The notes under the pieces were generated by a model. It was not told the DNA's origin, searched no databases, and saw nothing but the letters and a program-made list of their open reading frames with translations. Shown here piece after piece: positions 11,108-31,413 of a stretch of DNA of 64,000 bases. How positions within the stretch are numbered: the first letter of the stretch is position 1; the number at the start of each line of letters is the position of its first letter. The stretch comes from Sulfurimonas gotlandica GD1. GTDB lineage: Bacteria; Campylobacterota; Campylobacteria; Campylobacterales; Sulfurimonadaceae. The position numbers and the translations under genes are program-made. The stretch spans positions 868,001 through 932,000 of the forward strand of contig NZ_AFRZ01000001.1 of the NCBI RefSeq assembly GCF_000242915.1, written 5' to 3'.

Positions 11108-11111
11108 AAGC

Positions 11112-11215: not shown

Positions 11216-12706
11216 ATGAAAAAAATCGCAATTATCGGTCGTCCAAATGTTGGAAAAAGCTCACTTTTTAATCGTTTAGTTAAAAAAAGAGATGCCATTA
11301 CATCTGACATTGCTGGAACCACAAGAGATGTGAAAAGAAGAAATACCGTGATTATAAACAAAGAAGTAGAACTTCTTGATACAGGCGGACTGGATAAAGG
11401 CTGTGAACTATTTGACAAGATAAAAGAGATGTCACTAAAAGCTGCTTATAAAGCTGACATAATTTTATATATGGTAGATGGCAAAAGTATACCTGAAGAT
11501 GAAGATAAAAAACTTTTTTACGAACTTCAAAATCTTGGAAAAGAGGTAGCCTTAGTTGTTAACAAAATAGATAACGACAAGATGAAAGAAAACCTTTGGG
11601 ACTATTATGAGTTTGGGACAGATGCTATCTTTGGTATTTCAGTAGCTCACAACAGAAACACTGTTGAACTTCTTGATTGGATTGCTTCTAAAATTCCAGA
11701 TAGTGATATTATTAAAGAAGATGAAGAGGGTGAAGATGAGATCCAAATCATTGAGCCAGAACTTGATGATGAAGATTTCTTTGCTAATGCAAGAAAGCAT
11801 GATGAAGATGATGATGGATTTACTTATTGGGATGATGATGAGATGGATGGAGTCATTCAGGATGATACTATCTATGGAAATAATGACCGTATAAAAGAAT
11901 TTAATGAAGAAGATGTAAACCATATTAAAATTGCGATTATTGGTCGTACAAATGTTGGTAAAAGTTCCCTTTTAAATGCTCTTTTAGGTGAAGAACGTTC
12001 AGTAGTAAGTAGTGTAGCTGGAACGACAATAGACCCTATTGATGAGACAATAGACTATAAAGGCAAGCAACTTACTTTTGTTGATACGGCAGGTCTAAGA
12101 AGAAGAGGTAAGATTTTAGGTATTGAAAAATACGCTCTAATGAGAACTACAGAGATGCTAGATAATTCTAACATGGCACTAATAGTTTTAGATGCAAGTG
12201 AACCTTTTTTAGATTTAGATGAAAAAATTGCTGGTCTTGTAGATAGCAATAGACTAGCTTCTATAATTGTTTTAAACAAGTGGGATATATCTAAAAGAGA
12301 AGAGCATGACAAAATTATTAAAGAAGTAAGAGAGAGATTTAAATTTTTAGCATATGCACCAATCATTACTATCTCTGCAAAATCACATCAAAGAGTTGAT
12401 AAACTTCACGATATGATTTTAGAGATAAATGAAAACTACTCTCAGAGAATTCCAACTTCAAAAATAAATGAAGTACTTGAACGTGCACTTCGTCGTCACA
12501 CACTTCCAAGTGTTAGTGGACAAGTTATCCGTATCTACTATGCAACGCAGTATGAGACACGACCACCGAAGATAGCAATTGTTATGAATAAACCAAGCGG
12601 TCTGCACTTCACATATAGACGATATTTAACTAATCAGATGAGAGAAGCATTTAACTTTACGGGGACTCCGCTTCTGTTTAAAGCTAAAAAACGCGGAGAG
12701 AAGTAA
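11216..12706 (+). CDS. der: Ribosome-assembly GTPase Der (EngA)
   Basis: A 496-residue protein with the tandem GTPase domains unique to Der: the first P-loop is GRPNVGKSSL at about 8-17, the second GRTNVGKSSL at about 242-251, followed by the KH-like C-terminal domain (RPPKIAIVMNKPSGLHFTYRRYL). It acts in 50S ribosome maturation. The linker between the GTPase domains, about residues 165-235, is unusually long and acidic (runs such as DDEDFF and HDEDDDG); a long acidic linker is also known in other Campylobacterota. Single gene unit. Confidence 0.95.
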   Translation: MKKIAIIGRPNVGKSSLFNRLVKKRDAITSDIAGTTRDVKRRNTVIINKEVELLDTGGLDKGCELFDKIKEMSLKAAYKADIILYMVDGKSIPEDEDKKLFYELQNLGKEVALVVNKIDNDKMKENLWDYYEFGTDAIFGISVAHNRNTVELLDWIASKIPDSDIIKEDEEGEDEIQIIEPELDDEDFFANARKHDEDDDGFTYWDDDEMDGVIQDDTIYGNNDRIKEFNEEDVNHIKIAIIGRTNVGKSSLLNALLGEERSVVSSVAGTTIDPIDETIDYKGKQLTFVDTAGLRRRGKILGIEKYALMRTTEMLDNSNMALIVLDASEPFLDLDEKIAGLVDSNRLASIIVLNKWDISKREEHDKIIKEVRERFKFLAYAPIITISAKSHQRVDKLHDMILEINENYSQRIPTSKINEVLERALRRHTLPSVSGQVIRIYYATQYETRPPKIAIVMNKPSGLHFTYRRYLTNQMREAFNFTGTPLLFKAKKRGEK

Positions 12707-12737
12707 ACCACTTTTGGCTTGAAGAGCTAGTTAGTTC

Positions 12738-13262
12738 CTAAGCCTCTTTGGGTATTTGTTTTATCACTCTGTAAATAACAAAAGCACCAATTGCCAAGGT
12801 TATGAAAGTGAAAACAAAAGAAAATGTTTTAGTAATTACATAACCTACAATTAACAAAGATAATACAGTCGGGACTTCATTATAAGCTCTAAAAAAGTTT
12901 CCACTTTTAGAATAGTTATCACGTTCTAGTTGAACTCTATAGTATTCTAAAGAAAATGAATATACCATTAGTACAATAACCACTAAAATTTTAGCATACA
13001 TCCATATATCGTCTTGTAATAACTCTGGTCTTAGAAATAGCATCCAAAGTCCGCTAATTACAGTTGCCCACATTGCAGGAAGTCCTATATATTTGTACAT
13101 TTTATATTCTTGAATTTTTACAACTTCTACAAAATCAGGTTTATTTTTATGTTCTGTGTGATACACATATAATCTTGGCTGATAAAAAAGCATTGCCATC
13201 CATGACAAAACTGCCATAATATGAAATACTACAATCCATAAATAATAATCCATAATATTCAT
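12738..13262 (-). CDS. hemJ: Protoporphyrinogen oxidase HemJ
   Basis: A 174-residue inner-membrane protein with four or five helices. The N-terminal FHIMAVLSWMAMLFYQPRLYVYH segment, with its conserved histidine near residue 14 and the LSW motif, is characteristic of HemJ (the UPF0093 family), which oxidises protoporphyrinogen IX to protoporphyrin IX in haem synthesis. Haem demand in this organism is high given the multihaem cytochromes nearby, and hemB lies in the same window. Thirteen bases separate it from the upstream barrel gene, which is co-directional. Confidence 0.85.
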   Translation of the reverse strand: MNIMDYYLWIVVFHIMAVLSWMAMLFYQPRLYVYHTEHKNKPDFVEVVKIQEYKMYKYIGLPAMWATVISGLWMLFLRPELLQDDIWMYAKILVVIVLMVYSFSLEYYRVQLERDNYSKSGNFFRAYNEVPTVLSLLIVGYVITKTFSFVFTFITLAIGAFVIYRVIKQIPKEA

Positions 13263-13275
13263 CTCTATAACCCTA

Positions 13276-13875
13276 TTAAAAGTTTTTTTCTAAAGAGAAA
13301 GCATAGTAGTTAGACCCACCCTTATTAACATTATTAATCAAACCAAAAACACCTGAACGATGCTTTACGGCAAAACCAAGATAAGTCTCTTTTAAAGGTT
13401 CATATCTAACCAACCTGCCAATATCAAAATCAAAACTAAAATCTATATAATTTAGAAATTTAGAGTTGTTATCATTGTTTTGAATTGCTTCTTGTTTTTC
13501 AAAATATAAAATGTCACTTGTATAAGAAACACCCTCACCAAATCCAAGTCTAACTCTATTACTTAAAAAATCTATATTCCAATAAACTTTTACATACAAT
13601 GTAGCTTCATAGATATCATCTTGTAATCCAGCTTCATCAAAGTAAGATAAACCACTTTTTACATAAAAATCTAACGGAAGTTCAAAAGCATCTTTCTTAA
13701 GAAGGTAGCCACCATCAAGGGCAGTTACTTTTAAATCTTGAGGATATGATTTAACATCCAAAAAAAGTACTTCACCAAAATCACTATTAGTAACTGGCCC
13801 ATGGGCAATTCTAAGTGAATAATTATTATCTGCACTCAAGTTTAAAAACAAAAATAATAAAACTATGTATTTCAA
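13276..13875 (-). CDS. Outer-membrane beta-barrel protein, possibly PagL/acyloxyacyl-hydrolase-like
   Basis: A 199-residue exported protein with a short signal peptide (MKYIVLLFLFLNLSA). It has alternating hydrophobic strands with aromatic girdle residues and ends in an aromatic-terminated strand (YYAFSLEKNF), as in small outer-membrane barrels. Near the end the segment VKHRSGVFGLINNV contains an H-x-S pair that resembles the catalytic His and Ser of the lipid A deacylase PagL. The glutamate that completes the PagL triad is not obvious at the usual spacing, so the enzymatic assignment is tentative. Confidence 0.55.
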   Translation of the reverse strand: MKYIVLLFLFLNLSADNNYSLRIAHGPVTNSDFGEVLFLDVKSYPQDLKVTALDGGYLLKKDAFELPLDFYVKSGLSYFDEAGLQDDIYEATLYVKVYWNIDFLSNRVRLGFGEGVSYTSDILYFEKQEAIQNNDNNSKFLNYIDFSFDFDIGRLVRYEPLKETYLGFAVKHRSGVFGLINNVNKGGSNYYAFSLEKNF

Positions 13876-13908
13876 AAGTATTTCCTATTGAGGGTATGTT
13901 GGAGAGTT

Positions 13909-13934
13909 TTGTACACCCAAAAGCGGGCGTACAA
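13909..13934 (-). terminator. Hairpin after hpf
   Basis: Ten-base stem with one G-T pair (TTGTACGCCC on the minus strand pairing with GGGTGTACAA, loop of six). It lies in the gap between the hpf stop and the barrel gene. There is no T-run, so it may be an mRNA 3'-end stabiliser. Confidence 0.45.
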
Positions 13935-13951
13935 TTATTGAATAAACTTGA

Positions 13952-14281
13952 TTAAGCGTCAAGAGTTTCTAAATCTTTTACGGAAGAATTGTTGTGATCA
14001 ATAACTTTTGTATGTAGGCGACGAAGTGCTTTAGAAGCTCTATCAATTGCTAAATCAATTGCAGCGTCTAGATTATCATCGCTTTGATTAATAACAACTG
14101 GTTCAGCGTGTGCAATATGAATATCGAATTCAACTGAAACACCTTTTTTTTCAGCTTTAAGGCTAACATTTACTGTAGTAATATCTAATGTATATTTTGA
14201 AAATCCTTCAATCGCAGACTCAATGTGAGCTCTAGTATTGTCGTGAAGTGTAATATCTTTTGCGCGAACTTGTACATTCAT
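13952..14281 (-). CDS. hpf: Ribosome hibernation promoting factor, short form
   Basis: A 109-residue protein of the HPF/RaiA family: the N-terminal MNVQVRAKDITLHDNTRAHIE and the LDAAIDLAIDRASKALRRLHTKV helix are diagnostic. It binds the 30S decoding centre in stationary phase and inactivates ribosomes. It lacks the C-terminal dimerisation domain of long HPF, though a short tail follows. The ribosome-binding site is AAAGGA, and a strong hairpin (14298-14318) lies just upstream in the 5' region. Confidence 0.92.
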   Translation of the reverse strand: MNVQVRAKDITLHDNTRAHIESAIEGFSKYTLDITTVNVSLKAEKKGVSVEFDIHIAHAEPVVINQSDDNLDAAIDLAIDRASKALRRLHTKVIDHNNSSVKDLETLDA

Positions 14282-14297
14282 AATAAATCCTTTAAGT

Positions 14298-14318
14298 GGG
14301 GTGGCTTCTAGCTACCCC
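14298..14318. other. Hairpin in the hpf-trpS divergent region
   Basis: Nine-base stem (GGGGTGGCT/AGCTACCCC, loop TCT, one G-T pair) located 17 bases upstream of the hpf start. It could be part of the hpf 5' leader or an operator between the divergent genes. Confidence 0.4.
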
Positions 14319-14391
14319 TATATATAAGCAATAATAACAGAATAAAGCTGAGATTGGTATAATACGACTTAAAAATTTAGGATTTTTACAA

Positions 14392-15357
14392 ATGAGAGTA
14401 TTTACAGGTATTCAACCCTCTGGAGATTTACATATAGGAAACTATTTTGGCTCTATAAAGCAAATGGTTGACGCTCAAAAAGATAGTGAAACTTTTGCTT
14501 TTATTGCAAATTACCATGCACAAACAAGTGTTAATGACGGAAAACGACTTGCTGAGCTTACTATGCAATGTGCAACTGACTTTCTTGCACTTGGAATTGA
14601 TCCAAATAAATCAACATTCTGGGTTCAATCAGATGTAAAAGAAGTTTTAGAACTTTACTGGGTATTGTCATCATTTACTCCAATGGGCCTACTTGAAAGA
14701 GCTCATAGTTACAAAGACAAAACTGCTCGTGGTCAAGCTACTAACCATTCACTTTTTTCTTACCCTGTACTTATGGCAGCGGACATCTTACTTTTTAGCT
14801 CAGATGTTGTTCCAGTTGGAAAAGATCAAATACAACATGTTGAAATCGCTAGAGATATTGCTACAAAATTCAACAATCAATATGGTGATATTTTAGTAAT
14901 GCCTGAATTTCGCGTTCAAGAAGATGTCCAAACAGTTCCTGGAATTGATGGACAAAAAATGTCTAAGAGTTATGGGAACATTGTTAACATCTTTGGTGAA
15001 GAAAAAGCACAAATGAAAACAATTAAAAAAATTGTTACAGAGAATGTTGCTATGGAAGAACCAAAAGAGTTTGAAAACTGTAATGTATACAATATGGCTA
15101 AACTATTTTTAGAAGGTGATAATCTTATAGCTCTTCAAAACAGATATAAAAATGGTGGGGAGGGTCACGGTCACTTTAAAATCTATCTTGGTGAAGTAAT
15201 GTGGGAATATTTTAGAGAGTATAGAGAAAAACGTGCCTACTATGAAAAGAACCAAGATGAAGTTAGAGAGATTTTAAACATGGGAGCAGTTAAAGCAAGA
15301 GAAGTATCTATGCCTATGATTGAGAAAATTAGAAGTGCTACAGGAATTAAATACTAA
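14392..15357 (+). CDS. trpS: Tryptophanyl-tRNA synthetase
   Basis: A 321-residue class I aminoacyl-tRNA synthetase. The ATP-binding signatures are seen as PSGDLHIGNY (HIGH) near residue 10 and KMSKSYGN (KMSKS) near residue 190; GKDQIQHVEIARDIA and the C-terminal GEVMWEYFREYREKR helix are family segments. Length is normal. A TATAAT box at about 14359-14364 and an AGGA ribosome-binding site precede it. No T-box or trp leader is visible. Confidence 0.96.
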   Translation: MRVFTGIQPSGDLHIGNYFGSIKQMVDAQKDSETFAFIANYHAQTSVNDGKRLAELTMQCATDFLALGIDPNKSTFWVQSDVKEVLELYWVLSSFTPMGLLERAHSYKDKTARGQATNHSLFSYPVLMAADILLFSSDVVPVGKDQIQHVEIARDIATKFNNQYGDILVMPEFRVQEDVQTVPGIDGQKMSKSYGNIVNIFGEEKAQMKTIKKIVTENVAMEEPKEFENCNVYNMAKLFLEGDNLIALQNRYKNGGEGHGHFKIYLGEVMWEYFREYREKRAYYEKNQDEVREILNMGAVKAREVSMPMIEKIRSATGIKY

Positions 15358-19646: not shown

Positions 19647-20210
19647 TTGAATATAGAGATTTCAGAAGTAGCAAATTTGCCATCAAAGTTTGGCGACTTC
19701 AAAGTAAAAGCCTTTAAAGAAGGCCAAAAAGAGCACCTTGTTATATACTCAGACAACTTAGCCGAAGTTCCAACTGTACGAGTTCACTCAGAGTGTTTAA
19801 CTGGAGATGCAATAGGCAGTTTAAAGTGTGACTGTAGAGACCAACTTGAATATGCGTTAAAGCTAGCATCTTCTAGTGATGGGATGGTTATATATCTAAG
19901 ACAGGAGGGGCGTAACATTGGTCTTTTAAACAAGATAAATGCTTATGCTCTGCAAGATAAAGGTCTAAATACTATTGAGGCAAACCATCAACTTGGCTTT
20001 CGTACAGATGAGAGAACTTACGAAATCGTTACATATATCCTGCATCACTTTGGCGTTAAAAAAATAAAACTACTAACTAATAACCCTGATAAAATCAATT
20101 CTATCAGTGACATAGAAATTGTAGAGAGAGTTCCTATTATTATGGACTCAAATAAATACAATATAGATTACTTAAATGTAAAAAAAGATGAGATGGGTCA
20201 TCTACTATAA
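19647..20210 (+). CDS. ribA: GTP cyclohydrolase II
   Basis: A 187-residue enzyme for the first riboflavin step, opening the GTP ring. The zinc cysteines are in SECLTGDAIGSLKCDCRDQ (about residues 50-67) and the catalytic region in LRQEGRNIGLLNKINAYALQD. Start is TTG. The gene is the integration target of the mobile element: the 17-bp attL lies inside its last codons (20188-20204), and the element supplies the end of the gene, so the protein now ends GHLL. At attR the matching bases read GHLI and a stop, probably the original end. Confidence 0.95.
   Translation: MNIEISEVANLPSKFGDFKVKAFKEGQKEHLVIYSDNLAEVPTVRVHSECLTGDAIGSLKCDCRDQLEYALKLASSSDGMVIYLRQEGRNIGLLNKINAYALQDKGLNTIEANHQLGFRTDERTYEIVTYILHHFGVKKIKLLTNNPDKINSISDIEIVERVPIIMDSNKYNIDYLNVKKDEMGHLL
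20188..20204 (+). repeat. attL, 17-bp direct repeat in the ribA 3' end
   Basis: ATGAGATGGGTCATCTA, identical to 31397-31413. It covers codons for EMGHL at the end of ribA, so integration keeps the reading frame closed by element-borne sequence. Confidence 0.85.
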
Positions 20211-20346
20211 GCAATATTCCGCACTCCCCACAAGCAGGGAGCATATCCCTTAATATAGGGAACTATAAGACATTTTAAAACTATTCTATTCCTTTTTAAT
20301 CCCTTTAAATCCTTTCTAAGTCTATATACCTTACAATATAAAACTC

Positions 20347-20368
20347 CATATACCAATATTAGTATATG
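20347..20368 (+). promoter_or_regulatory. Inverted repeat upstream of the integrase gene
   Basis: CATATAC (20347-20353) and GTATATG (20362-20368) separated by eight bases, 21 bases before the integrase ATG. It may be an operator or an integrase-binding arm site. The 178-base stretch from ribA to the integrase also holds a CCCTTAATATAGGG hairpin (about 20255-20268). Confidence 0.45.
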
Positions 20369-20388
20369 AATTAAACAGAGGATTATAT

Positions 20389-21522
20389 ATGGCTATGAAA
20401 TATAACTTAGAAATCACTAAGTATAAAAATATTTACTCTCTAAAAAAAGACAATGGGAAAGATGAGTATTACACTACTTTTATGTTGAAAGGTATTACTT
20501 ATCAAAAGAAAAACCTCACTGCTGAGTTTAATGCTACTACTGCAAAACAAGCAAGTGAAACATTAGAATTTATCAAATCTGAAATACGAGAAGGAAGAGA
20601 GCCTTTTCAATCAAACGGTGGAGATAAAGTAAGAAATATTATTCTTAATGATATAGCAACTAAAAAGCCTAAAAATAAAGGTGGCGACAATTCACATTAT
20701 AAGAGAAGCTTAGAGCTATTTTTCAACAAATACATTAATCCGACAATAGGTCATTTGACAATGGAGAATGTAAAAGACAGCCATATAAAAAAAATATTAA
20801 ATAGCTTGGAGGGTAATACAAAAAGCTATAAGCTTACAGTAAATGTGTTAATGCTGAAAATATTTGAAAATGCTTTTAGAAAGGGAGCAATTAAAACTAA
20901 CCCTTTTTATGATTTAGATTATGGAACACACGAGCCAAAAGCTGAGTTTGATATAAGACTCAACGAGGATATGGAAGATACCGCTAAAAAAATATATAAT
21001 GCAACTATAAACTTTGATATGTCTCATAGATTATTATTTTTATTGTCAATTATGTCAGTAAGAAGAATTGGAGAAATCTGGAAGCTAAGATTTTCTCATT
21101 TTAAAAAATACAGTGATGGAAGTTGGTATGTATTAGCAACAAAGGACATCACTAAAACTGGAATTGAGGAAAAATATCCTATTCCATTAGAAGTTGTCGA
21201 ACTACTTCCTGAAGAAGTATTAGATGATGAATATAAAGATGAAAAACTATTCCATTTTTGCTATTCAGGAATGTTTTTAAAAGAAGCCAAGCTCATAAAA
21301 AATGCGAAGGTTGAAATAAATAAGGGATACAAAATCACATCTCACGACAACAGAAACTTATTTATTTCGATTCTTTCTTCATTAGGAATAGATAGTGACT
21401 TAGCCGATAGATGTCTATCTCATAATAACAAAAAAAATATAAAGCAAGTCTATTTAGATGTTCCTTATAAAAAAAGAAAAGAGATATTTGAAAAGTGGTG
21501 GAACTTTTTAAGAGCAAAATAA
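20389..21522 (+). CDS. Tyrosine-type site-specific integrase
   Basis: A 377-residue phage-type integrase. The catalytic arginine is in MSVRRIGEIW near residue 224, HDNRNLF near 319 supplies HxxR, and LSHNNKKNIKQVYLD near 344-357 supplies the last histidine and the nucleophilic tyrosine. The N-terminal part holds an arm-type and SAM-like core-binding domain. It lies just inside attL, the usual position for the integrase that created the element. A strong rho-independent terminator follows. Confidence 0.93.
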   Translation: MAMKYNLEITKYKNIYSLKKDNGKDEYYTTFMLKGITYQKKNLTAEFNATTAKQASETLEFIKSEIREGREPFQSNGGDKVRNIILNDIATKKPKNKGGDNSHYKRSLELFFNKYINPTIGHLTMENVKDSHIKKILNSLEGNTKSYKLTVNVLMLKIFENAFRKGAIKTNPFYDLDYGTHEPKAEFDIRLNEDMEDTAKKIYNATINFDMSHRLLFLLSIMSVRRIGEIWKLRFSHFKKYSDGSWYVLATKDITKTGIEEKYPIPLEVVELLPEEVLDDEYKDEKLFHFCYSGMFLKEAKLIKNAKVEINKGYKITSHDNRNLFISILSSLGIDSDLADRCLSHNNKKNIKQVYLDVPYKKRKEIFEKWWNFLRAK

Positions 21523-21608
21523 ATTCACACTTTTTATCACTTTTTACCACATAATTACTTATAATGAGGTTCTTATAGAACGCTATTTTCATAAAAACCA
21601 AATTTATA

Positions 21609-21640
21609 GCTAAAAAAGCCCCTATTTTTAGCATTTTTTT
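21609..21640 (+). terminator. Rho-independent terminator after the integrase gene
   Basis: Perfect 8-bp stem GCTAAAAA (21609-21616) and TTTTTAGC (21625-21632), then seven consecutive T (21634-21640). Confidence 0.75.
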
Positions 21641-21707
21641 CACTCTAAATATACCCCTTTTAATTATATTCTTATATCCTATTGTTTTATACATATAGGT
21701 ATCTATA

Positions 21708-22481
21708 CTATTCATATAACATACTCTCTATATCTATCATAATAGACTTATTATTAACAACTATATAATCATCAGATAATGTAGAATCTTTCTCTTCTAT
21801 AATAATATTTTTCTTATCAATCTGCTTTAAAATATATAGATAGTTTTCTTCATTCTTAAAGGTTTTCCATATGTATTTTAAATGTATGTTTAGATAACGA
21901 TATATATATTTAATTACATAATTAGGTAGTTCTTTTCTACTTGCCGTATACATAGGCTTGCCCATAAGCCTTTCTTTCTTTCTAATTTCATATTCTTCAT
22001 CATACGGACGATAATACTCTTTAATAACATACTCATACTTAGTAAGTTTATTACACTTAGGATGAGTAACATCACTATTTTTATATATGCAGTTTTCTTT
22101 TAAAAATAATAATGTCTTTTCAATAGGTGCGAAGTCATCATAAAAAAATTGGATATGAATATGTGGATTAAACGAGTAGCCTTTTGATGGTTTAAATTCT
22201 CCATCACTCTCACCGAACTCTATTTGAGTAAAGTATGCTATTGATGTTTTATTTTTATCTTTGGCTCGTGAATATGATTTCAGCTTTTTCATCATCACTT
22301 TCCTTAATTCAAATAGAGAATCGAGACATTCATCTCCTATGCTACTATTTCTTTCATTACCAAGTGTTATTGATACCAAAGCTTTTTTTCTATGCTTATT
22401 CTCATAAAATAAAGATTTATAAATAGCTCTTGTGAGTCTATTCTTATAATCATAGTCTTGCTCTTGTAAACTTATTTTCAT
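21708..22481 (-). CDS. HUH-motif replication initiator-like protein
   Basis: A 257-residue protein. The segment SFNPHIHIQFFYDD puts an H-x-H (HUH) metal-binding motif at residues 107-109, and further on ELPNYVIKYIYRYL has a Y-x-x-x-Y pair at about 188 and 192 on a helix, the layout of two-tyrosine HUH nucleases such as rolling-circle replication initiators. I infer a Rep protein for the element, but an inovirus-like or transposase-like HUH enzyme cannot be excluded. It is the last gene of a leftward operon with a methyltransferase and two small genes. Confidence 0.65.
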   Translation of the reverse strand: MKISLQEQDYDYKNRLTRAIYKSLFYENKHRKKALVSITLGNERNSSIGDECLDSLFELRKVMMKKLKSYSRAKDKNKTSIAYFTQIEFGESDGEFKPSKGYSFNPHIHIQFFYDDFAPIEKTLLFLKENCIYKNSDVTHPKCNKLTKYEYVIKEYYRPYDEEYEIRKKERLMGKPMYTASRKELPNYVIKYIYRYLNIHLKYIWKTFKNEENYLYILKQIDKKNIIIEEKDSTLSDDYIVVNNKSIMIDIESMLYE

Positions 22482-22496
22482 AGCTATTATAGATAA

Positions 22497-22715
22497 TCAA
22501 TATTCACTTGGACAAGTTAGTTTTGCTAAGTGTGTAATAAGTTCTCTCTTATCTCCAGTGATTTGATCGCAACCGATACCTTTAATATAATCATTGAACT
22601 CTGCTTTTGTAGTTCTTTTAAGAACTTTTTCCCAACCTATTAATAATGGATTTCCAACAGCATATGCCTCTATTAAATTTTCAATATCATCTATTCTTTT
22701 TTTTCTACTTCGCAT
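22497..22715 (-). CDS. Small hypothetical protein in the element's Rep operon
   Basis: A 72-residue basic protein (MRSRKKRIDDIENLIEAYAVGN...). No family recognised. It sits between the upstream 170-residue gene, abutting with no gap, and the Rep-like gene 15 bases downstream, so it is translated as part of that operon. The C-terminal half (QITGDKRELITHLAKLTCP) looks helical. Confidence 0.6.
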   Translation of the reverse strand: MRSRKKRIDDIENLIEAYAVGNPLLIGWEKVLKRTTKAEFNDYIKGIGCDQITGDKRELITHLAKLTCPSEY

Positions 22716-23228
22716 TTATGCTACCTTCCCAATAGTAATTATTTCAGGCAAAAGTCCATTATTCGTCATTTTAAGATTATATATTTTTTTGATATCAACT
22801 CCTTTTACACCTAAAAAATCAACTATTTCGCATATCCCATTTTTAATACTCAAGTCTGCTTCTTTCTTCTTTTTTTTAGGAATATGTTTCCATATACTCG
22901 CCGCATTTCTATGCCATTTTTTAACATATTTACGATAATTAACATCATTAATATCAACTTCTCCATAGTCTAATCCAAATCTTGATTTAAATTTATGTAA
23001 AACATAAATATTTGAATTAAGAGAAAGACTCAAATCAGTATGAAGCACATCATCTAAATCTATTTCTCTTTCTTTATATTTAAAGTTAGTAGAATAGTTT
23101 AAAACTAATCCATCTGGACTAAGCTCTGGCACTATTATTAAGTCGATATTAATATTTTCTCGTTCAGTAAAGTTTTTTATTTGCTCTAAAATATCATTCA
23201 TAACTTGATTTCTGTCATAAGGTTTCAT
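22716..23228 (-). CDS. Hypothetical protein in the element's Rep operon
   Basis: A 170-residue protein without a signal peptide or membrane helix. The middle has a lysine run (IPKKKKKEADLS). I do not recognise it. Its start overlaps the methyltransferase stop by one base and its stop abuts the 72-residue gene, so it belongs to a four-gene leftward operon (23884 to 21708) and probably serves replication or maintenance of the element. Confidence 0.65.
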   Translation of the reverse strand: MKPYDRNQVMNDILEQIKNFTERENINIDLIIVPELSPDGLVLNYSTNFKYKEREIDLDDVLHTDLSLSLNSNIYVLHKFKSRFGLDYGEVDINDVNYRKYVKKWHRNAASIWKHIPKKKKKEADLSIKNGICEIVDFLGVKGVDIKKIYNLKMTNNGLLPEIITIGKVA

Positions 23229-23884
23229 TATGCTACCCTCTCAATATCTATAAAACTTTGATTATTCACTGGTAATAAGTTAAGTTTTGCCTTTGATTCA
23301 TCATAAATGTAAAAAGGTTTTAGTTTTGGCATATTGAAAAATAAAACTTGTGCATTAAATTTAATACCATTAAATACATCTAAGGGAAGAGTCATAAGAC
23401 TTGTAATATCAAAATTACCATCAGAGACATATTTCAGTCTTGCAGACTTTAATCTATTATTATTTAAAAAATTATCGCCCGTAATCATCACTACTGGAAT
23501 ATCTTCGCCAAATCTATCAAACATAGTTTTTAGGAATAGATGAGGAAATAATAAATTCTTACCTCTGCCATTACCGTTAAACGGTGGGTTCATAATAATC
23601 AAATCAGGTTTCACATTCTCAGGTATATCTGAGTTCTTAATATCTTGATGGAAAAAAACATTACATTGATTTTTTGCATTTTTATCAATATCTGCTCCAA
23701 TAACTTCAACGCCATTTTCAAGGTAATATTTAGTCATACCACCACTTATACCGATACAAGGGTCAAAGACAGTTTTAAAGTCATATTCAGAAGTAATTAT
23801 CTTATATAGTTCATAACTTAACTCTTTTGGAGTAAACACAGTTGATTTTTTTTGTTTTTTATCTTTTTTATTAATGTTAGACAT
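23228..23884 (-). CDS. DNA adenine methyltransferase-like protein of the element
   Basis: A 218-residue SAM-dependent methyltransferase. Motif I is FDPCIGISGG near residue 40 and motif IV is NPPF at 99-102 (IIMNPPFNGNG), the type found in N6-adenine DNA methyltransferases. The N-terminal segment STVFTPKELSYELYKI also resembles the start of N-6 methylase domains. No restriction partner is adjacent in this operon, so it may be an orphan that protects or marks the element DNA. First gene of the four-gene leftward operon. Confidence 0.78.
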   Translation of the reverse strand: MSNINKKDKKQKKSTVFTPKELSYELYKIITSEYDFKTVFDPCIGISGGMTKYYLENGVEVIGADIDKNAKNQCNVFFHQDIKNSDIPENVKPDLIIMNPPFNGNGRGKNLLFPHLFLKTMFDRFGEDIPVVMITGDNFLNNNRLKSARLKYVSDGNFDITSLMTLPLDVFNGIKFNAQVLFFNMPKLKPFYIYDESKAKLNLLPVNNQSFIDIERVA

Positions 23885-23923
23885 AATAATAGATCCTTTT
23901 TATTTTTTTATTTTGTATATTTT

Positions 23924-24014
23924 TTGGCATAGATATCCCTTTGGAAATATATGCTTTTTTAAATATTTAGCAAAAAATTGGCATAGATATCCCTTTATGA
24001 GATATGCTTTTTTT
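23924..24014. repeat. Two directly repeated units upstream of the methyltransferase-Rep operon
   Basis: TTGGCATAGATATCCCTTT at 23924-23942 and 23978-23996, exactly 54 bases apart. Each is followed on the plus strand by a near-complementary sequence ending ATATGC and a T-run, so each can also form a hairpin. The 499-base gap 23885-24383 holds these, the cruciform and the oriT-like region. They may be iterons, operators for the leftward operon, or paired terminators. Confidence 0.65.
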
Positions 24015-24045
24015 TCACTTTCGTGTTAAGTCCTTAATGGGTGAA

Positions 24046-24103
24046 TAATTATGTAGGGGAACAAATACTAAAGTTAATCATAGTATTTGTGGTTCAATAA
24101 TTA
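24046..24103. other. Cruciform-forming inverted repeat, candidate replication origin
   Basis: Inner arms ACAAATACTA (24061-24070) and TAGTATTTGT (24081-24090) are perfect with a ten-base loop; outer arms TAATTAT (24046-24052) and ATAATTA (24097-24103) extend it. Cruciforms like this are typical of the nick sites of HUH Rep proteins, and one is encoded in this element. A further 10-bp hairpin with T-tail follows at 24122-24146. Confidence 0.5.
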
Positions 24104-24121
24104 CAACAAATAAAGCAATTC

Positions 24122-24146
24122 AAAAAGCTAAACTAATTAGCTTTTT
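24122..24146 (+). terminator. Hairpin with T-run in the origin region
   Basis: Perfect 10-bp stem AAAAAGCTAA (24122-24131) and TTAGCTTTTT (24137-24146). There is no rightward gene just upstream, so it may serve a small RNA or be part of the origin structure. On the minus strand it would also end in T. Confidence 0.45.
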
Positions 24147-24268
24147 GCTTTGCCTTGGATATTATTGCGTAACAATGCTTAAAAACAACTTTATTCAAGG
24201 AAAATATATAATTTTCTTTTTATGTCTCTTAAGAAAAGAGGGTTTCAAAAGGGTGTTAATCCCTTTGC

Positions 24269-24312
24269 AGTGTCGTAATGGTTGGGGTTTCCCCACACTT
24301 TTACTATCCTGC
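24269..24312 (+). promoter_or_regulatory. Putative oriT with IncP-type nick motif
   Basis: A hairpin (TGGGG 24283-24287, loop TTT, CCCCA 24291-24295, with outer arms AGTGT/ACACT) is followed by CTATCCTGC at 24304-24312. YATCCTG|Y is the consensus nick site of IncP-type (MOBP) transfer origins, where it also follows an inverted repeat. The relaxase gene starts 72 bases downstream. The 78-codon open frame across this stretch is therefore not annotated as a gene. Confidence 0.6.
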
Positions 24313-24383
24313 TATATGCATAGTGCTATAAAACATGAAATTAAAAATAGTTTTTATAATCTCAGAAAAGAGAGGTTATAGAA

Positions 24384-25355
24384 ATGGAATTAAAAGATTT
24401 AAAGTTTGATGATTGTTTTTTTAAAGTGAATCGAATAAGAGGAATGGCACATTTTGGAACATACAATGAGTATCTTGATAAAGATAACGCAACAATGTAT
24501 TCAAAAATGAGTTATAAACAATTAGCAGAGATAGCAACAAGGCATATAAAAAGGGATGTTAAAAAATTAAAAGGTGGTCGCCCTGGGGATATGGCAAAGA
24601 ACTTTATCTTTTCTCTTCCTCCTAAGATGGAAAGTGTGATTAATAGAAAAGATAAAAAACAGATGGCTGACTTTGTGAAAACAATCACAGAAGCTTTTTT
24701 AAACTCAGTCCAAGCTAATCATCCAGAGATAAGTATAAAGTGGCTTAGAGAACATTTAACAGTATCTTTACATACAGATACTAAACATACTCATTTCCAT
24801 GTCTTAGCACCTACATTAGCTTCTAATAATGGTCTATTAAACAATGATTACACTTTAATTGATTACGGAAAAAGAAATATAAGTAAGCTATCTCGCAAAG
24901 CAATATACAACTGGTGCAGAAAGATAATAGGAGAACAGCCTATAACTCCTGAACTATTTATGCAATATGCCAAAATTGAAAGTAAATCTAAGAACAAAGC
25001 AAAATGGAAAACTTATAAAGAGAGGATGAAAGACGCCACTATTGAACTTGAAGAAGCAACGATTGAATATAAACGAGGCTCTGCCGAGTATGAGGCACAA
25101 TCTCAAAGACTTAGAGAGCAATACGAAGAGATAGAAGAGAAAAATGAGAAATGGATTAGGAAGATTTTCAATATCTTAGCAAAAGTGGAGCGAATTGCAG
25201 AAGATCCGAAAACTACCTATCAACAAATCGAAACTAAGTTTGAGCGTTTAGAAACGCATATAGAGAAAACAGAGGATGAAAAATTAAAAGAAACGATAGC
25301 AACAGAAGTTAAAAAAGTGAAAGCTAAGATTTTACATCATAGCCCAAAATTATAA
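24384..25355 (+). CDS. Relaxase (mobilization protein)
   Basis: A 323-residue DNA-nicking transfer protein. The histidine motif SLHTDTKHTHFHV (residues 129-140, with H130, H135, H137 and H139) is the HUH motif III of MOBP-type relaxases, which often read HxDTxxxHxH. Candidate catalytic tyrosines are in HFGTYNEYLDKDN near residues 23-35. The C-terminal third is coiled coil (about 210-310, rich in E and K). The IncP-like nick site upstream agrees with a MOBP assignment. It would nick the element's oriT and lead the strand into a helper's secretion channel. Confidence 0.8.
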   Translation: MELKDLKFDDCFFKVNRIRGMAHFGTYNEYLDKDNATMYSKMSYKQLAEIATRHIKRDVKKLKGGRPGDMAKNFIFSLPPKMESVINRKDKKQMADFVKTITEAFLNSVQANHPEISIKWLREHLTVSLHTDTKHTHFHVLAPTLASNNGLLNNDYTLIDYGKRNISKLSRKAIYNWCRKIIGEQPITPELFMQYAKIESKSKNKAKWKTYKERMKDATIELEEATIEYKRGSAEYEAQSQRLREQYEEIEEKNEKWIRKIFNILAKVERIAEDPKTTYQQIETKFERLETHIEKTEDEKLKETIATEVKKVKAKILHHSPKL

Positions 25356-25401
25356 TTTTTCATTTTTTTCATTATAACAATCTAAATATAAGGAGTTAAA
25401 C

Positions 25402-25737
25402 ATGTATGAATTTATAGAATATTGGATAGTGGGTATTGTTTCTTTCTTGGTAGGATTTATCATTGCCCTACTTACCAAAAAGTGTGAAGATAAAGAAGAA
25501 TTAAAAGAGCTTTTAAATGATGTTAAAAGTAATTTGAATAGTGTCACTATACATTTATCAGAGAGTGAGACAGAGCGAATGGCTATGTTAAGAAATCAAG
25601 ATAATATTCAGCAGATGATAGAAAAATTAAAAACGACTATCTTTAACCGTTCTAGGGATGAAGAAAAAAACAGAATAAAAAATAAAAAACTCAAATCTAT
25701 CAAAAATAAAAACAATCAAGGAAATGACCTTGAATAA
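25402..25737 (+). CDS. Small membrane-anchored coiled-coil protein of the element
   Basis: A 111-residue protein with one N-terminal membrane helix (YWIVGIVSFLVGFIIALL), then a charged coiled coil and a lysine/asparagine-rich tail. It lies 46 bases after the relaxase gene with a ribosome-binding site (AAGGAG). Position and shape suggest a mobilization accessory protein that links the relaxosome to the membrane, but no family was recognised. Its end overlaps the next start by 14 bases. Confidence 0.6.
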   Translation: MYEFIEYWIVGIVSFLVGFIIALLTKKCEDKEELKELLNDVKSNLNSVTIHLSESETERMAMLRNQDNIQQMIEKLKTTIFNRSRDEEKNRIKNKKLKSIKNKNNQGNDLE

Positions 25738-26032
25738 CTATTATGATGACTTTGATTATTACAAATTAAAAACTGGATTATACGATGGCGAAGCATTAAG
25801 CCAAAATTGTAAAAGAGAACAAAAAGAAATTATTGCTCTATGGAATAAACTCGATGAACTAAGTGGTAACGCTTCTGCATATAATTTGAGAGATTTTTGG
25901 AGAAATCTACTCCTTGATGAATGGCTTGATAATTCAAATCATAAAGATAAGACTCGCATTGAACATACAATTTACTATATCTTCAAGATTAAGCCTATAA
26001 TTTTGAAGCACATAGAGGATTTATCCTCTTAG
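25724..26032 (+). CDS. Hypothetical protein of the element
   Basis: A 102-residue soluble, helical protein (MTLNNYYDDFDYYKLKTG...). No family recognised. It overlaps the preceding gene by 14 bases, consistent with one relaxase-accessory operon, and its stop overlaps by four bases the stop of the convergent J-domain gene. Confidence 0.55.
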   Translation: MTLNNYYDDFDYYKLKTGLYDGEALSQNCKREQKEIIALWNKLDELSGNASAYNLRDFWRNLLLDEWLDNSNHKDKTRIEHTIYYIFKIKPIILKHIEDLSS

Positions 26033-26493
26033 CAAGAGATTTTCTCTCTTGTTTTACTATGGACTGTTTGACAGCCATATTTAGCCTTTATATCACTCAT
26101 AGACTTCTGTTTAGGATTTCTCCCTTTCATCTCTCCGTAATACCACATCTTTTTCTTATTAGCCCACTTAAAACCAAGCTCTTTCAACTCATCTTTAATA
26201 CTCTTAGAATTACCACTAACCCAAATCCAAGAACCGACAACTTCAATGATAATATCTTGATAATGCAGTATCTTTGATATTATTTTCTCTATCTCTAAAT
26301 CAAACTCTGTATCACTCGCAAAGCTAATGCCATTTTCTAAAATACTATTGTATATCTCATTTAACATCTTAAATAGCTCAGTAGAGCCTCCCACGTCAGG
26401 ATGAAGCCTCTTAGCTAACTCTTTGTATATCTTCTTTGCTTCGTTTATGCCCTCAATGCCTAAAAACTCGTTTTTAATCTCTATATTTGTCAT
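26029..26493 (-). CDS. J-domain protein of mobile-element type
   Basis: A 154-residue protein with a short J domain near the N-terminus (YKELAKRLHPDVGGSTELFKMLNEIY, HPD intact) and a C-terminal segment GFKWANKKKMWYYGEMKGR that is typical of small DnaJ-like proteins carried by plasmids and prophages. It may recruit the host DnaK for replication-complex remodelling of the element. It faces the preceding genes and ends overlapping them by four bases. Confidence 0.75.
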   Translation of the reverse strand: MTNIEIKNEFLGIEGINEAKKIYKELAKRLHPDVGGSTELFKMLNEIYNSILENGISFASDTEFDLEIEKIISKILHYQDIIIEVVGSWIWVSGNSKSIKDELKELGFKWANKKKMWYYGEMKGRNPKQKSMSDIKAKYGCQTVHSKTREKISC

Positions 26494-26863
26494 CTCTTGT
26501 CCTTTAAATCAAATATCTATTTGAAGATTTTGAGGGTTTGCTCTTTTCTTCTTAACTTTTTAATTTTAAGAACTTCAAACATAATCTCTTAATCTTTCAA
26601 ATATCTCTTCGTTAGTTTCTCGGGTTTGTAGGATTGTGGGGAATGAATTTTTACTTAGAATAAAATATAAATATGCAGTATTTTAATTTAGTATCAGGGA
26701 ATAATTTTTTACACTTAAATGACGAAAACTGGAACTAATGATTGAGTTTTGCAAGATTGTTGATTTTGGTTGATGTTTTGTTGCTTAGTAAAAATTAAAC
26801 ATAAGATTGTTATTAAAATATTGTATAATCCTTTAACTTTAAACACTTAAGAGAATCAAATTA
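26494..26863. other. Gene-free A/T-rich gap before the restriction-modification operon
   Basis: A 370-base stretch with stops in all frames. It contains the promoter of the J-domain gene (leftward) and of mod (rightward), with a TATAAT box at 26824-26829, 35 bases before the mod ATG. No repeat, RNA gene or clear -35 box was seen. Confidence 0.5.
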
Positions 26864-28516
26864 ATGAATAAATATGAAAACTTATCAAAAGAACAGTTAT
26901 TACAAAAAATAAAAACTTTAGAGTCCAAGAAATATGGCTTATTTTGGGATGATGAAAAAGAACCAGAGAACGTAGTAATTGAATGTCAAAACAATATACC
27001 GATTTTAAATAATATAAAGACTAATACGATTAGCACTAATATATTAAGACCAAGTAATATACTAATTGAGGGGGATAATTATCACTCACTTCAAGTTTTA
27101 AATTATACTCATAATGGTAAAATTGATGTTATATACATAGACCCACCCTACAATACAAAGAATAAAGATTTTATTTATAATGACACTTATGTAGATGCAG
27201 AAGATGGGTACAAACATAGTAAATGGCTTAATTTTATGGAAAAAAGATTAAGGTTAGCACATAACTTATTAACTGAGAAAGGGGTAATGTTTATAAGTAT
27301 AGATGACAATGAAATGCCAAGACTAAATTTATTATGTAAAAAAATCTTTGGCGAAAATAATGTTGAAACTTATATATGGGATTTAAGAGATTTTGAAGAA
27401 AGCTCTTTTACAAAAACAGCTTCTCATACAGTTAGATTTGAGCACGAATATATTATTGCTTGCTATAAGAATAATAAAAAATTGTCAAGGTTTACGGAAT
27501 ATAGATTTAAGGATAGAGAAGACTTTTCTAATATTGACAATGACCCAAGGGGGGAGTGGATGTCAGGAAATATATCAAGAAATGGAATAAAATCTACAAG
27601 TGGTTCAAAATATTTTACAATCACGACTCCAACAGGTATTAAATATAGTAGAAATTGGACTTTATCTAAGAAAGAATATAAAGAACTTATAGATGATAAT
27701 AGAATATATTTTTCAAAAAATGGTGATGGAGTACCACGATTAAAAATATTTAAAAGTGAAAGCTCACAATCAATACAAAGTTCTATTTTTACTGGATTAA
27801 AAACTTCTATTACTGGTAAAAATGAAATTAAAGAATTATTTGATGGTAATGAATTGTTTAATTTTCCAAAGCCAACAACACTTATTAAGAGACTTGTTGA
27901 ACTTAGTTCAAATCAAACTTCTATTATATTGGACTTTTTCGCTGGTTCTGGAACAACTGGACAAGCCATATTAAACTTAAATCAAGAAGACGGTGGGAAT
28001 AGACAATTCATACTTTGTACAAATAATGAAAATAATATTTGCTCCGAAATAACATACCCAAGAATTAAAAAAATAATAAATGGCTATACTAATCCAAAGA
28101 ATGAAAAAGTAGAAGGATTAACTGGTAACTTACATTACTATATGACAGATTTAATTCCAATAGACGGGTATGTAAACATTAGTGACGCTAATAGAGAAGA
28201 TTTAACTCTAAAGGCAAGCAATATGATAGCTATAAAAGAAAACACACATATTGAAGTAGAATCAAACCAAAGCTATCAAATATTTAAAGATGAAGCAACT
28301 AATAAATATACAGCTATTTACTCAACAGAGGATTTAGAGTTCTTTGATGAACTAATAAAAAAAGTTGAAAAATTTAATACTACATTATATATTTATAGTT
28401 ATGGAAAAATTGATAAATCATCATACAACTATTTAGGTACTAATTTTCAAATAGAAGATATACCTGAACCAATAATAAATATTTATAAAGAAATAAACAA
28501 AGAGGGACTGATATGA
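26864..28516 (+). CDS. mod: Type III restriction-modification methyltransferase (Mod)
   Basis: A 550-residue N6-adenine methyltransferase. The catalytic motif IV DPPY is at 93-96 (VIYIDPPYNTKN) and the SAM-binding motif I FAGSGTTG is near 359, the order of beta-class enzymes such as type III Mod. The preceding ILIEGDNYHSLQVLN and the region between the motifs (target recognition) fit the family. Mod methylates one strand and gives the complex its specificity. No simple-sequence repeats that would make it phase-variable are visible. Its stop overlaps the res start by four bases (ATGA). Confidence 0.92.
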   Translation: MNKYENLSKEQLLQKIKTLESKKYGLFWDDEKEPENVVIECQNNIPILNNIKTNTISTNILRPSNILIEGDNYHSLQVLNYTHNGKIDVIYIDPPYNTKNKDFIYNDTYVDAEDGYKHSKWLNFMEKRLRLAHNLLTEKGVMFISIDDNEMPRLNLLCKKIFGENNVETYIWDLRDFEESSFTKTASHTVRFEHEYIIACYKNNKKLSRFTEYRFKDREDFSNIDNDPRGEWMSGNISRNGIKSTSGSKYFTITTPTGIKYSRNWTLSKKEYKELIDDNRIYFSKNGDGVPRLKIFKSESSQSIQSSIFTGLKTSITGKNEIKELFDGNELFNFPKPTTLIKRLVELSSNQTSIILDFFAGSGTTGQAILNLNQEDGGNRQFILCTNNENNICSEITYPRIKKIINGYTNPKNEKVEGLTGNLHYYMTDLIPIDGYVNISDANREDLTLKASNMIAIKENTHIEVESNQSYQIFKDEATNKYTAIYSTEDLEFFDELIKKVEKFNTTLYIYSYGKIDKSSYNYLGTNFQIEDIPEPIINIYKEINKEGLI

Positions 28517-30810
28517 AATTAATGGAGTTTCAAAAAAAAGCAGTAGATGACTTAAGTGAAAGTTTTTTTAATCTTTGGAAAACTAATGAAAATAAATTAC
28601 CATTAGTATTTAAAGCACCTACTGGTGCGGGGAAAACAATTATGATGGCAGAGTTTTTAAGAACTCTTGATACAAACTATCATTTTGATGAAGATAAAGC
28701 TTATATCTGGATTTCATTTGGTGGAGACGAGTCATATATGCAGTCAAAAAAGAAACTATATAAATATTTCAATGATGGCACAGATATGGCATTAAAAGAT
28801 AAAGATGATTTATCTCAAAAAGAACTTGGAAAGAATAATATTTTTTTTATTAACTGGTCAAAAATAAAATCCAGCACGAAAGATGGTAAGGTTTTAAGAA
28901 AGGATAATGAGCTCACAGATGGCGACTATGGGATATTTGACGAATATATCAAAAATACAAAAGCAAAAAGAGATTTAGTTTTAATTGTTGATGAAGCACA
29001 TACTGAAACAAGCACTGGATTAGCCACGGAGGTTATTGATTTAATTGACCCAAGAATTATAATAAAAGTAACAGCTACCCCAAAAACAACTCCAAGTGCA
29101 GATGATATTGATGATAATAAAGCTGGGTATATTAGGGTCAAAGAAGATGAAGTAATACAAAGCGGTCTGATAAAAGATAGCATTATTATTCAAACAAAGG
29201 AAGAGATAGAATCTATTGAGTCTGGCTCTTTGAGCGAAGATGAACTAATGATAGAACTTGCCATAAAAAGAAGAGACGAACTCTTAGGATATTACCAAGA
29301 CTTAAAGCTTGATATAAATCCATTAGTATTGATTCAACTTCCAAACGATATGGATGAAAAAGAACAGGTTACAACTAATAAAAAAGCAGTAGTGTTAAAT
29401 TATCTGAAATCAAAAGGGATAAGTAACGATAAGATAGCAATTTGGTTAAGTAATGAAAAAATAAACTTAGATTTAATAGAATTAAATAATAGTGATGTAG
29501 ATTTTATGCTTTTTAAAGCAGCTGCAGCTACTGGATGGGATTGCCCAAGAGCATCAATTTTAGTGATGTTTAGAGAAATTAAAACACCTACATTTCATAC
29601 ACAAATAATTGGTAGAATTAAAAGAATGCCTGAAGCAAAGCATTACGAAAATGGAATACTAAATAAAGCTTATATTTACACTAACTATAATAAGTCACAT
29701 ATACAAGATATAAAAGATAAAACTGAAAATAAAGTTCCTTGTTTTAATTCAGTAATTAAACCTGAAATAGAACAAATTGAATTACAAAGTATGTATCATA
29801 ATAGAGTAGATTTTAATACTTTAACTCCAGAAAATAAATGGCAAAAATATATGCTGAGTATTCTTGATGAAAATAAAGAATTGATACTTGAAAGAATAGA
29901 TACAACAGTAACGGCAATAGATAATAAAATAGTCGTAGATACTACGATAGATAGTTTTGATAACTTTATTGTGCAACTTAAAGCAAAAGCAAATGAAACT
30001 AATTTCCATTTTAGTAGGAATGACATTGAAAAACTTTATAACTTATTGTGTTTTGAAGAACTACAAAAACAAGACCTTGAATTAGCTAAATATAATCCAT
30101 CAAGGTCGTGGAGTGCTTTAAAAAAATCATTGAATGTTTGGTTTAATAAGAGGCTTAATCTTCATAAAGAAAAGTTCTATACTATCATCGTAAATGATAT
30201 GTTGAAAAGTGATAATAAAAGTGTCTTAAAACAGATGATACATAAAGCATTAGTTGGTTTTAGAGAGATTTTTGAAGCAGAAACAGAAAGCAAAGATGGT
30301 AAGGAAGAAATAATTGTAATTGCACCTCCACAAGAACTTAGTTTTACAGATGATTATGAACTTATAGAATGTAATAAAAATGTATATAACCTTTTTTACA
30401 ATGCTAAAAAATACTTAGGAAAAGAGAATGAAGAAAAATTTATTACTTTTCTTGAAGAACAAGATAATGTTCAATGGTGGCATAAACAAAGCAATAGTGG
30501 AAAAGATGCTTTTGCAGTAGAATACTATGACGCACAAGAGAGTAAAGATAGACTCTTTTTTCCTGATTTTATCATAAAGACAAAAGATAAACTTTACATT
30601 TTAGATACTAAAAAAGATGGCACCGCTAAATCTACTGAAACAAAATCTAAAAGTGAAGCACTTCAAAAATGGATTAAAGAAAATCAAGATAAGTATGATT
30701 TAGAGTTAATTGGTGGTATAGCCATCATTAAACACCCACATTGGAAACTTAACAGTCAAGATGAGTATATTTATGAGAATGATAGTGAGTGGATTAATAT
30801 AGAGTTTTAA
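28513..30810 (+). CDS. res: Type III restriction endonuclease (Res)
   Basis: A 765-residue ATP-dependent restriction subunit. Walker A is APTGAGKTIMM at about 35-45, DEAH (IVDEAHTE) near 160, ATGWDCPRASIL with QIIGRIKRMPE near 350 for the helicase C-lobe, and a C-terminal PD-D/ExK nuclease is seen as FFPDFIIK...LYILDTKK near 684-701. Shorter than the 900-1000 residues of EcoP1I-type Res, but all motifs are intact. Translated coupled to mod. Confidence 0.92.
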   Translation: MKLMEFQKKAVDDLSESFFNLWKTNENKLPLVFKAPTGAGKTIMMAEFLRTLDTNYHFDEDKAYIWISFGGDESYMQSKKKLYKYFNDGTDMALKDKDDLSQKELGKNNIFFINWSKIKSSTKDGKVLRKDNELTDGDYGIFDEYIKNTKAKRDLVLIVDEAHTETSTGLATEVIDLIDPRIIIKVTATPKTTPSADDIDDNKAGYIRVKEDEVIQSGLIKDSIIIQTKEEIESIESGSLSEDELMIELAIKRRDELLGYYQDLKLDINPLVLIQLPNDMDEKEQVTTNKKAVVLNYLKSKGISNDKIAIWLSNEKINLDLIELNNSDVDFMLFKAAAATGWDCPRASILVMFREIKTPTFHTQIIGRIKRMPEAKHYENGILNKAYIYTNYNKSHIQDIKDKTENKVPCFNSVIKPEIEQIELQSMYHNRVDFNTLTPENKWQKYMLSILDENKELILERIDTTVTAIDNKIVVDTTIDSFDNFIVQLKAKANETNFHFSRNDIEKLYNLLCFEELQKQDLELAKYNPSRSWSALKKSLNVWFNKRLNLHKEKFYTIIVNDMLKSDNKSVLKQMIHKALVGFREIFEAETESKDGKEEIIVIAPPQELSFTDDYELIECNKNVYNLFYNAKKYLGKENEEKFITFLEEQDNVQWWHKQSNSGKDAFAVEYYDAQESKDRLFFPDFIIKTKDKLYILDTKKDGTAKSTETKSKSEALQKWIKENQDKYDLELIGGIAIIKHPHWKLNSQDEYIYENDSEWINIEF

Positions 30811-30816
30811 CCAAAA

Positions 30817-31308
30817 TTGGATAAACTAACACTTATGAAAAATAATGAATTAAATCAGCTATATAAAATGTTTGAAGAACTAAGTGAAGAAAGTAAAAAA
30901 AACATAATACTTCTTCCAAGGTTTAAGTTTAACCATAGAGATTTAAGACTGGATTACATTTCAAAAAGTGATTATATTTTTCTAAGTAATATATTAGATA
31001 ATTACACTTCTACAATAAAAGAAAAAGAAAAATCAGATAAAGAACAGATTGACCTTCTAAGTTTAAAAGATGAGATAAGCAGTCAAATAAAAGAACTTGC
31101 AACTTCAATTAATGTTAGTAATAAAAAATTAATTACTGGTAAAGATTTTGAAGATATATATTCTATCCCAGAAAAAAAACAGGGAATATTAAGAGGAAAA
31201 ATGAAAGACCCATTACCACATATTCAAACAGCAAGCCGTGGAAATGTATTATATGATACAAAAATTGTTGATAAATGGTTAGAAAATTATAAAAAGAATA
31301 CTTTGTAA
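30817..31308 (+). CDS. Excisionase-like HTH protein at the end of the restriction operon
   Basis: A 163-residue protein starting at TTG 30817 or ATG 30835; neither has a clear ribosome-binding site. The N-terminal two-thirds is helical and charged. The C-terminal part, LITGKDFEDIYSIPEKKQGI...LPHIQTASRGNVLYDTKIVDKWLENY, follows the pattern of winged-helix DNA-binding domains of the MerR/excisionase (HTH_17) type. It follows res by six bases but lies 89 bases from attR, so it may be a recombination directionality factor or a regulator of the restriction genes. Confidence 0.6.
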   Translation: MDKLTLMKNNELNQLYKMFEELSEESKKNIILLPRFKFNHRDLRLDYISKSDYIFLSNILDNYTSTIKEKEKSDKEQIDLLSLKDEISSQIKELATSINVSNKKLITGKDFEDIYSIPEKKQGILRGKMKDPLPHIQTASRGNVLYDTKIVDKWLENYKKNTL

Positions 31309-31396
31309 AATGTTTTAAATATCTATATACTTATCTATACACCAATTTTTAAAATCGCCACAGGGACCTATTTTATGTTGCTAATCAATTTTATAA

Positions 31397-31413
31397 ATGA
31401 GATGGGTCATCTA
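31397..31413 (+). repeat. attR, 17-bp direct repeat
   Basis: Identical to attL at 20188-20204. Read in the ribA frame the sequence continues ATC TAG, so this junction probably keeps the original last codons of ribA. Confidence 0.82.

Follow-up and report, generated by a model that had tools for sequence, protein, structure and literature searches.

The window, a 64,000-nt stretch (868001-932000) of the 2.95-Mb single-contig genome of Sulfurimonas gotlandica GD1, contains an 11.2-kb island bounded by the exact 17-bp repeat ATGAGATGGGTCATCTA at 20188-20204 and 31397-31413. The island ends given in an earlier note on this DNA (20188-31413) are borne out by this repeat, which is exact at both bounds. 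The G+C content is 28% for the island, compared with 33% for the window. The features discussed here are as follows, in window positions.

20188-20204, no strand: left att repeat, an exact 17-bp match to 31397-31413, within the 3' end of ribA (GTP cyclohydrolase II)
20389-21522, plus: tyrosine recombinase (integrase), PF00589 E = 2e-9, 30% identical to the integrase of island L004 (E 6e-41)
21708-22481, minus: probable Rep-type HUH endonuclease, 257 aa, assigned from an 11-member alignment, Pfam matches of its relatives and alignment with microvirus Reps
22497-22715, minus: 72-aa protein, putative operon member, an ORF with no Pfam, NCBIfam or PADLOC match
22716-23228, minus: 170-aa protein, putative operon member, an ORF with a sub-threshold DUF1493 match (E = 0.002)
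23228-23884, minus: orphan N6-adenine-type DNA methyltransferase (MTase) with an NPPF motif, PF02384 above cutoff, phrog_799 E = 1e-11
23924-23942, no strand: 19-bp direct repeat, copy 1, exact
23978-23996, no strand: 19-bp direct repeat, copy 2, exact
24046-24103, no strand: 58-nt imperfect hairpin, 10-bp and 7-bp stems with an asymmetric internal loop, z -2.4
24115-24153, no strand: stronger hairpin with an 11-bp perfect stem, CAAAAAGCTAA/TTAGCTTTTTG, z -4.3
24283-24312, plus: probable oriT, the hairpin TGGGGTTTCCCCA followed by a nic-like TATCCTG^C (24305-24312)
24384-25355, plus: canonical-looking relaxase, assigned from the motif HTDTKHTHFH, with a very weak PF03432 stretch at residues 125-157
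25402-25737, plus: short protein adjoining the relaxase, with an N-terminal membrane-like segment and a coiled coil
30817-31308, plus: small DNA-binding protein, a relative of HTH_17 (excisionase-like) proteins in islands L004 and L034
31397-31413, no strand: right att repeat, an exact 17-bp copy of the left repeat

Comparison with other genomes showed that the insertion site exists empty: in G559 the joined island flanks align as one continuous match, an uninterrupted site, and in G579 and G556 ribA adjoins the right-hand gene, so that the flanks are adjacent without the island. The island thus has an integrase and direct att repeats at both ends, and relatives have the site empty. Genes for mating-pair formation (T4SS) were not recognized among the island ORFs, and a search for VirB4-family proteins did not reveal any match in the host genome, consistent with an element that has no T4SS genes of its own. 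The best explanation of this gene content is an integrative mobilizable element (IME) that has integrated into ribA at its 3' end.

Apart from the features listed above, the island encodes a type III restriction-modification pair and a DnaJ-like protein. The restriction-modification pair is carried as cargo at 26864-30810 (Mod 550 aa, Res 765 aa). The 154-aa protein encoded at 26029-26493 has a DnaJ-like stretch, a strong match to phrog_15863 (E 4e-36), a PHROG without assigned function, and, at its C-terminus, a short stretch that matches the end of ZorC. No structured RNA of known type was found in the island.

The relaxase at 24384-25355 is preceded, 72 nt upstream of the gene, by the site TATCCTG^C. 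This site fits YATCCTG^Y, the consensus of IncP-type nic sites. Sequences of the form YATCCTGY occur 6 times in the window, against 5.2 expected by chance, and only at 24305-24312 is the sequence immediately preceded by a G+C-rich hairpin, of a kind found at 0.8% of random positions. We assign 24283-24312 as the oriT of the relaxase with moderate confidence. A gene similar in appearance to the short gene adjoining the relaxase, and unalignable with it, also adjoins the relaxase gene of L004.

Between the integrase and the relaxase, four genes run on the minus strand in the order MTase (23884-23228), 170-aa protein (23228-22716), 72-aa protein (22715-22497) and HUH protein (22481-21708), with spacings of -1, 0 and 15 nt. 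The earlier description of the HUH gene, an orphan methyltransferase and two uncharacterized genes as a single run agrees with this same-strand arrangement, by which the four genes are a putative operon. The further proposal that MTase, the two uncharacterized genes and a Rep form an undescribed system did not hold up. The MTase and the two uncharacterized genes were found around none of ten HUH relatives, and the 170-aa gene was absent from the other 199 genomes of the class among the 200 searched. The combination was therefore rejected as a conserved module, and its lack of recurrence suggests a local assembly of mobile genes rather than a conserved system. The closest MTase relative found, 63% identical, is in a phage (viral) contig, L021, which does not carry an HUH gene. 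A search of plasmids with the MTase, the relaxase and the 170-aa protein gave no match. In L034 an MTase-like gene adjoins the HUH gene; it does not match the MTase of the window. As to function, our guess is that the MTase could protect incoming DNA from restriction.

The HUH protein is encoded apart from the relaxase. As the earlier note had proposed, the ORF at 21708-22481 encodes a separate 257-aa protein carrying PH107IH109. Ten relatives were gathered by stepwise searches, and the resulting 11-member alignment comprised the window protein, members from Sulfurimonas islands L004, L033 and L034, and members from viral contigs L002, L003 and L015-L019. Weak profile matches in other genomes (E 1e-3 to 1e-2) were excluded as fragments, three of them with internal stops. 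The alignment contains motif I (about residues 34-40; KALVSITL in the window protein, [LI][TS]FT in most of the 11 members), an E-x-G element, motif II (PHxHxQ; PH107IH109IQ in the window protein) and motif III, Y151-x-x-K154-[DE] (Y151VIK154 in the window protein). H107, H109, Q111, Y151 and K154 are invariant in all 11 members. The motifs stand in the order I-II-III, with an invariant tyrosine in motif III. This order is that of Rep proteins, and Mob proteins have the reverse (PMC5714925); the family is therefore of Rep rather than Mob type, and the window protein is probably a Rep-type enzyme with one catalytic tyrosine.

Y188 and Y192 had been put forward as a catalytic Y188-xxx-Y192 pair. 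Position 188 is a tyrosine in 2 of the 11 members (window, L004) and position 192 in 3 (window, L033 and L019), where the closest homologue has F; the tyrosine present in all members is Y151. A two-tyrosine (Y2, YxxxY) Rep acting through Y188 and Y192 is ruled out by the alignment. The distance from the first His of motif II to the Tyr of motif III is 49 residues in two aligned microvirus Reps, compared with 44 for Y151 and 81 for Y188.

Family searches placed the relatives more clearly than the window protein, which had no significant Pfam, PHROG or NCBIfam match. PF23343 (REP_ORF2-G2P) was matched by 5 of the 9 members scanned (best E 5e-8); L002 and L003 were above the curated cutoff, L017 fell just short, and the window protein gave no match. 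Rep_1 (PF01446) was matched by the closest homologue, that of L004, at E 3e-4 over the N-terminal half only and below cutoff (20.7 vs 33.2 bits), and was not matched by the window protein. A tblastn search of a phage collection gave weak matches, almost all of them to annotated microvirus replication initiators (Rep/VP4), and no relative of the HUH protein was found in the plasmid search. AF2 models of the HUH protein, at low confidence (pLDDT 45, then 56), have the order strand-helix-strand-strand(HUH)-helix-strand, which is compatible with an HUH fold. A PDB fold search with these low-confidence models returned generic ferredoxin-like folds alone, and some of the matches in a BFVD search with the model of mean pLDDT 45 were Reps of microviruses and CRESS-DNA viruses. 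The enzyme group appears to be unnamed, and no Pfam or NCBIfam model appears to catch its island members.

The relatives allow the HUH gene to be compared with the mobilization genes around it. The islands of the window and L004 have in common the integrase (30%), the HUH protein (40%) and the HTH protein (32%), and nothing else detectable, relaxases included. The mobilization gene has a PF03432-like (MobP-like) motif in the window island and is MobV-like in L004; L034 has a TrwC/MobF relaxase with a TrwB-type coupling protein, and no mobilization gene was recognized in L033. Relatives of the HTH protein occur in the window island, L004 and L034, and the only window proteins with relatives in the HUH loci are the integrase, HUH, HTH and MTase proteins. 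The HUH gene, often with the integrase and the small HTH gene, thus persists across four islands around which the mobilization module varies. This argues against a mere relaxase role of the HUH protein, which more likely serves maintenance; the argument rests on four islands, in one of which (L034) the HUH gene is split between two frames. Together with the motif order and spacing and the PF23343 matches of relatives, the swapping of relaxase modules upholds the earlier view of the second HUH protein as a Rep-type initiator distinct from the relaxase.

In L034 (9018-10042, genome G536), the two frames lie about 170 bases apart and the gene, which adjoins the HTH gene and the TrwC/MobF-TrwB module, is possibly decayed; it is thus not always intact. 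L004 carries at 10843-15120 a DUF4145 protein, a PP2C phosphatase and a protein kinase that resemble candidate defence genes (PDC-M21C, PD-T4-6 / mad6), so that cargo differs while the island core is kept. The viral contigs L015-L019 encode the same HUH family, and several carry tail, baseplate, endolysin or DNA clamp genes. By this gene content, they would belong to tailed phages that encode a microvirus-like Rep. The island and viral HUH proteins are about 20% identical overall.

The intergenic region between the MTase and relaxase genes (23885-24383) contains the repeats and the cruciform noted earlier. The 19-bp repeat TTGGCATAGATATCCCTTT occurs as two exact copies, 54 nt start to start. 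No repeat longer than 15 was obtained in 2000 dinucleotide shuffles of the 499-bp region, so the 19-bp repeats are not due to chance, and no further exact copies are present in the genome. The 58-base cruciform corresponds to the hairpin at 24046-24103, which 5 of 200 shuffles equalled; the stronger hairpin at 24115-24153, equalled by 0 of 200 and terminator-like on both strands, had not been listed.

The repeats and cruciform had been read as the origin of the Rep protein. This reading is not supported: the relatives lack these elements, the elements flank the promoter region of the operon, and part of the same intergenic stretch is the probable oriT. When the region was compared with noncoding DNA near the HUH genes of L004, L033 and L034 for a common origin, k-mers were shared no more than by chance, with the exception of one low-complexity 13-mer (p about 0.04, uncorrected). 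In sequence comparisons, then, nothing appears to tie the 19-bp repeats or hairpins to the Rep protein, since no relative has them. That the repeats are operators through which the four-gene operon regulates itself, and not a replication origin, has in our estimate an even chance, and is at least as likely as an origin role. The repeats precede the start of the MTase, the first gene of the operon, by 40-112 nt and are about 1.4 kb from the HUH gene; their 54-nt spacing is about five helical turns, each contains a GCATA...TATGC dyad, and a weak promoter-like match (23973-23946, minus strand) sits between them. However, promoter-like matches are no commoner in the region than in shuffles, and repeats and hairpins are combined in rolling-circle (RC) origins too. 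Downstream of the HUH gene of L033 (8815-9326, genome G627), a 21-base direct repeat, TGACATTTATTTTCCTTTTGA, occurs 147 bases apart in AT-rich DNA; it may instead consist of short coding repeats.

Several other roles for the HUH protein were weighed. It could be a second, non-canonical Rep-type relaxase that provides an alternative mobilization route with another helper and does not support vegetative replication. Reps of the Rep_1 type are able to serve as relaxases, and in many streptococcal IMEs the relaxase is Rep-like (PMC5714925, PMC5704250). We nevertheless consider this unlikely, as a canonical-looking relaxase with a probable oriT is already present in the island and the HUH gene is retained across islands whose relaxase families differ. 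The same HUH family also occurs in the seven viral contigs, of which several encode tail proteins and have no obvious need for conjugation. Somewhat less likely still is a phage-type initiator, by which the island would be amplified, or phage replication disturbed, upon infection by a related phage. Outside the islands, the relatives come from viral contigs that encode baseplate, tail, endolysin and DNA clamp proteins, and the closest relative found of the operon MTase (63%) is in another phage contig; but no capsid, packaging or phage-regulation gene was recognized in the island, the island has a relaxase, and its HUH protein shares only about 20% identity overall with the viral ones.

A far-reaching combination, to which we give little credence, is that an unnamed one-tyrosine Rep family common to Sulfurimonas integrative elements and tailed phages allows phage-type amplification of the island on infection, so that the island would be mobilizable and at the same time a satellite that responds to phage. 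Least probable, to the point of being rejected, is that the protein works on hairpin repeats as a Y1 enzyme of transposase type (IS200/IS605 or REP-associated): the HUH motif, the single tyrosine and the nearby hairpin-forming repeats would suit such an enzyme, but the HUH gene is single copy in the genome, the repeat has no dispersed copies, and the protein does not match Y1_Tnp, its relatives being Rep families.

We favor, as a rather probable reading, an IME whose one-tyrosine HUH protein is a rolling-circle initiator that maintains the excised circle. The integrase would excise the island as a circle, and the HUH protein would nick one strand of the circle with Y151 to start rolling-circle copying, keeping the free circle from being lost before mobilization or reintegration. 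The separate relaxase would nick its own oriT (24283-24312), and the strand would leave through the secretion system of a helper, since the search of the genome found no VirB4-family gene. Excision and integration are supported by the anatomy of the island; nicking by the HUH protein, replication of the circle and transfer are steps that we infer. On this basis, a brief phase of self-copying in the excised, circular form is probable for the island.

A second enzyme of this kind has been described in other islands, and a new type of system is not established here. IMEs that encode both a relaxase and a replication initiator, rolling-circle types included, have been reported, and SGI1, with rep (S003), is listed among those with a separate initiator (PMC5704250); replication of SGI1 has been demonstrated (PMC7433901). 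Such IMEs resemble the window island in site-specific integration, in a relaxase of their own, canonical-looking in the window island, in a separate predicted initiator, and in that a T4SS of their own is not recognized. SGI1 has an iteron origin and a RepA_C-type initiator (PMC7433901), whereas the initiator of the window island is of the HUH/rolling-circle type, with replication predicted from sequence. ICEBs1 and Tn916 are likewise integrative elements maintained by rolling circle once excised; in these one Rep_trans/MobT protein does both jobs, whereas in the window island the relaxase and the Rep-type protein are separate genes.

Among initiators, microvirus VP4 (PF23343, REP_ORF2-G2P) resembles the window family in motif I, the E-G spacing before motif II (GEYG vs IEFG), PHxH and the spacing of the motif III tyrosine. 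Microvirus initiators have two tyrosines (YxxxY, e.g. YVAKYMQK), in contrast to YxxK(D/E) with one invariant tyrosine in the window family. Rep_1 (PF01446; pC194/pUB110 type) is likewise an HUH Rep with the order I-II-III, matched by the L004 homologue at the E value given above, but that match is below the curated cutoff and confined to the N-terminal half, and no plasmid relative was found.

The maintenance of excised IMEs against loss has been described as an unexplored area (PMC5704250). The window island offers a compact case in which the transfer initiator is separate from the probable replication initiator, and the four-island comparison one in which the transfer modules are swapped but the initiator is retained. 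A link is also made between an apparently unnamed Rep group of bacterial islands on the one side and tailed phages and microvirus initiators on the other.
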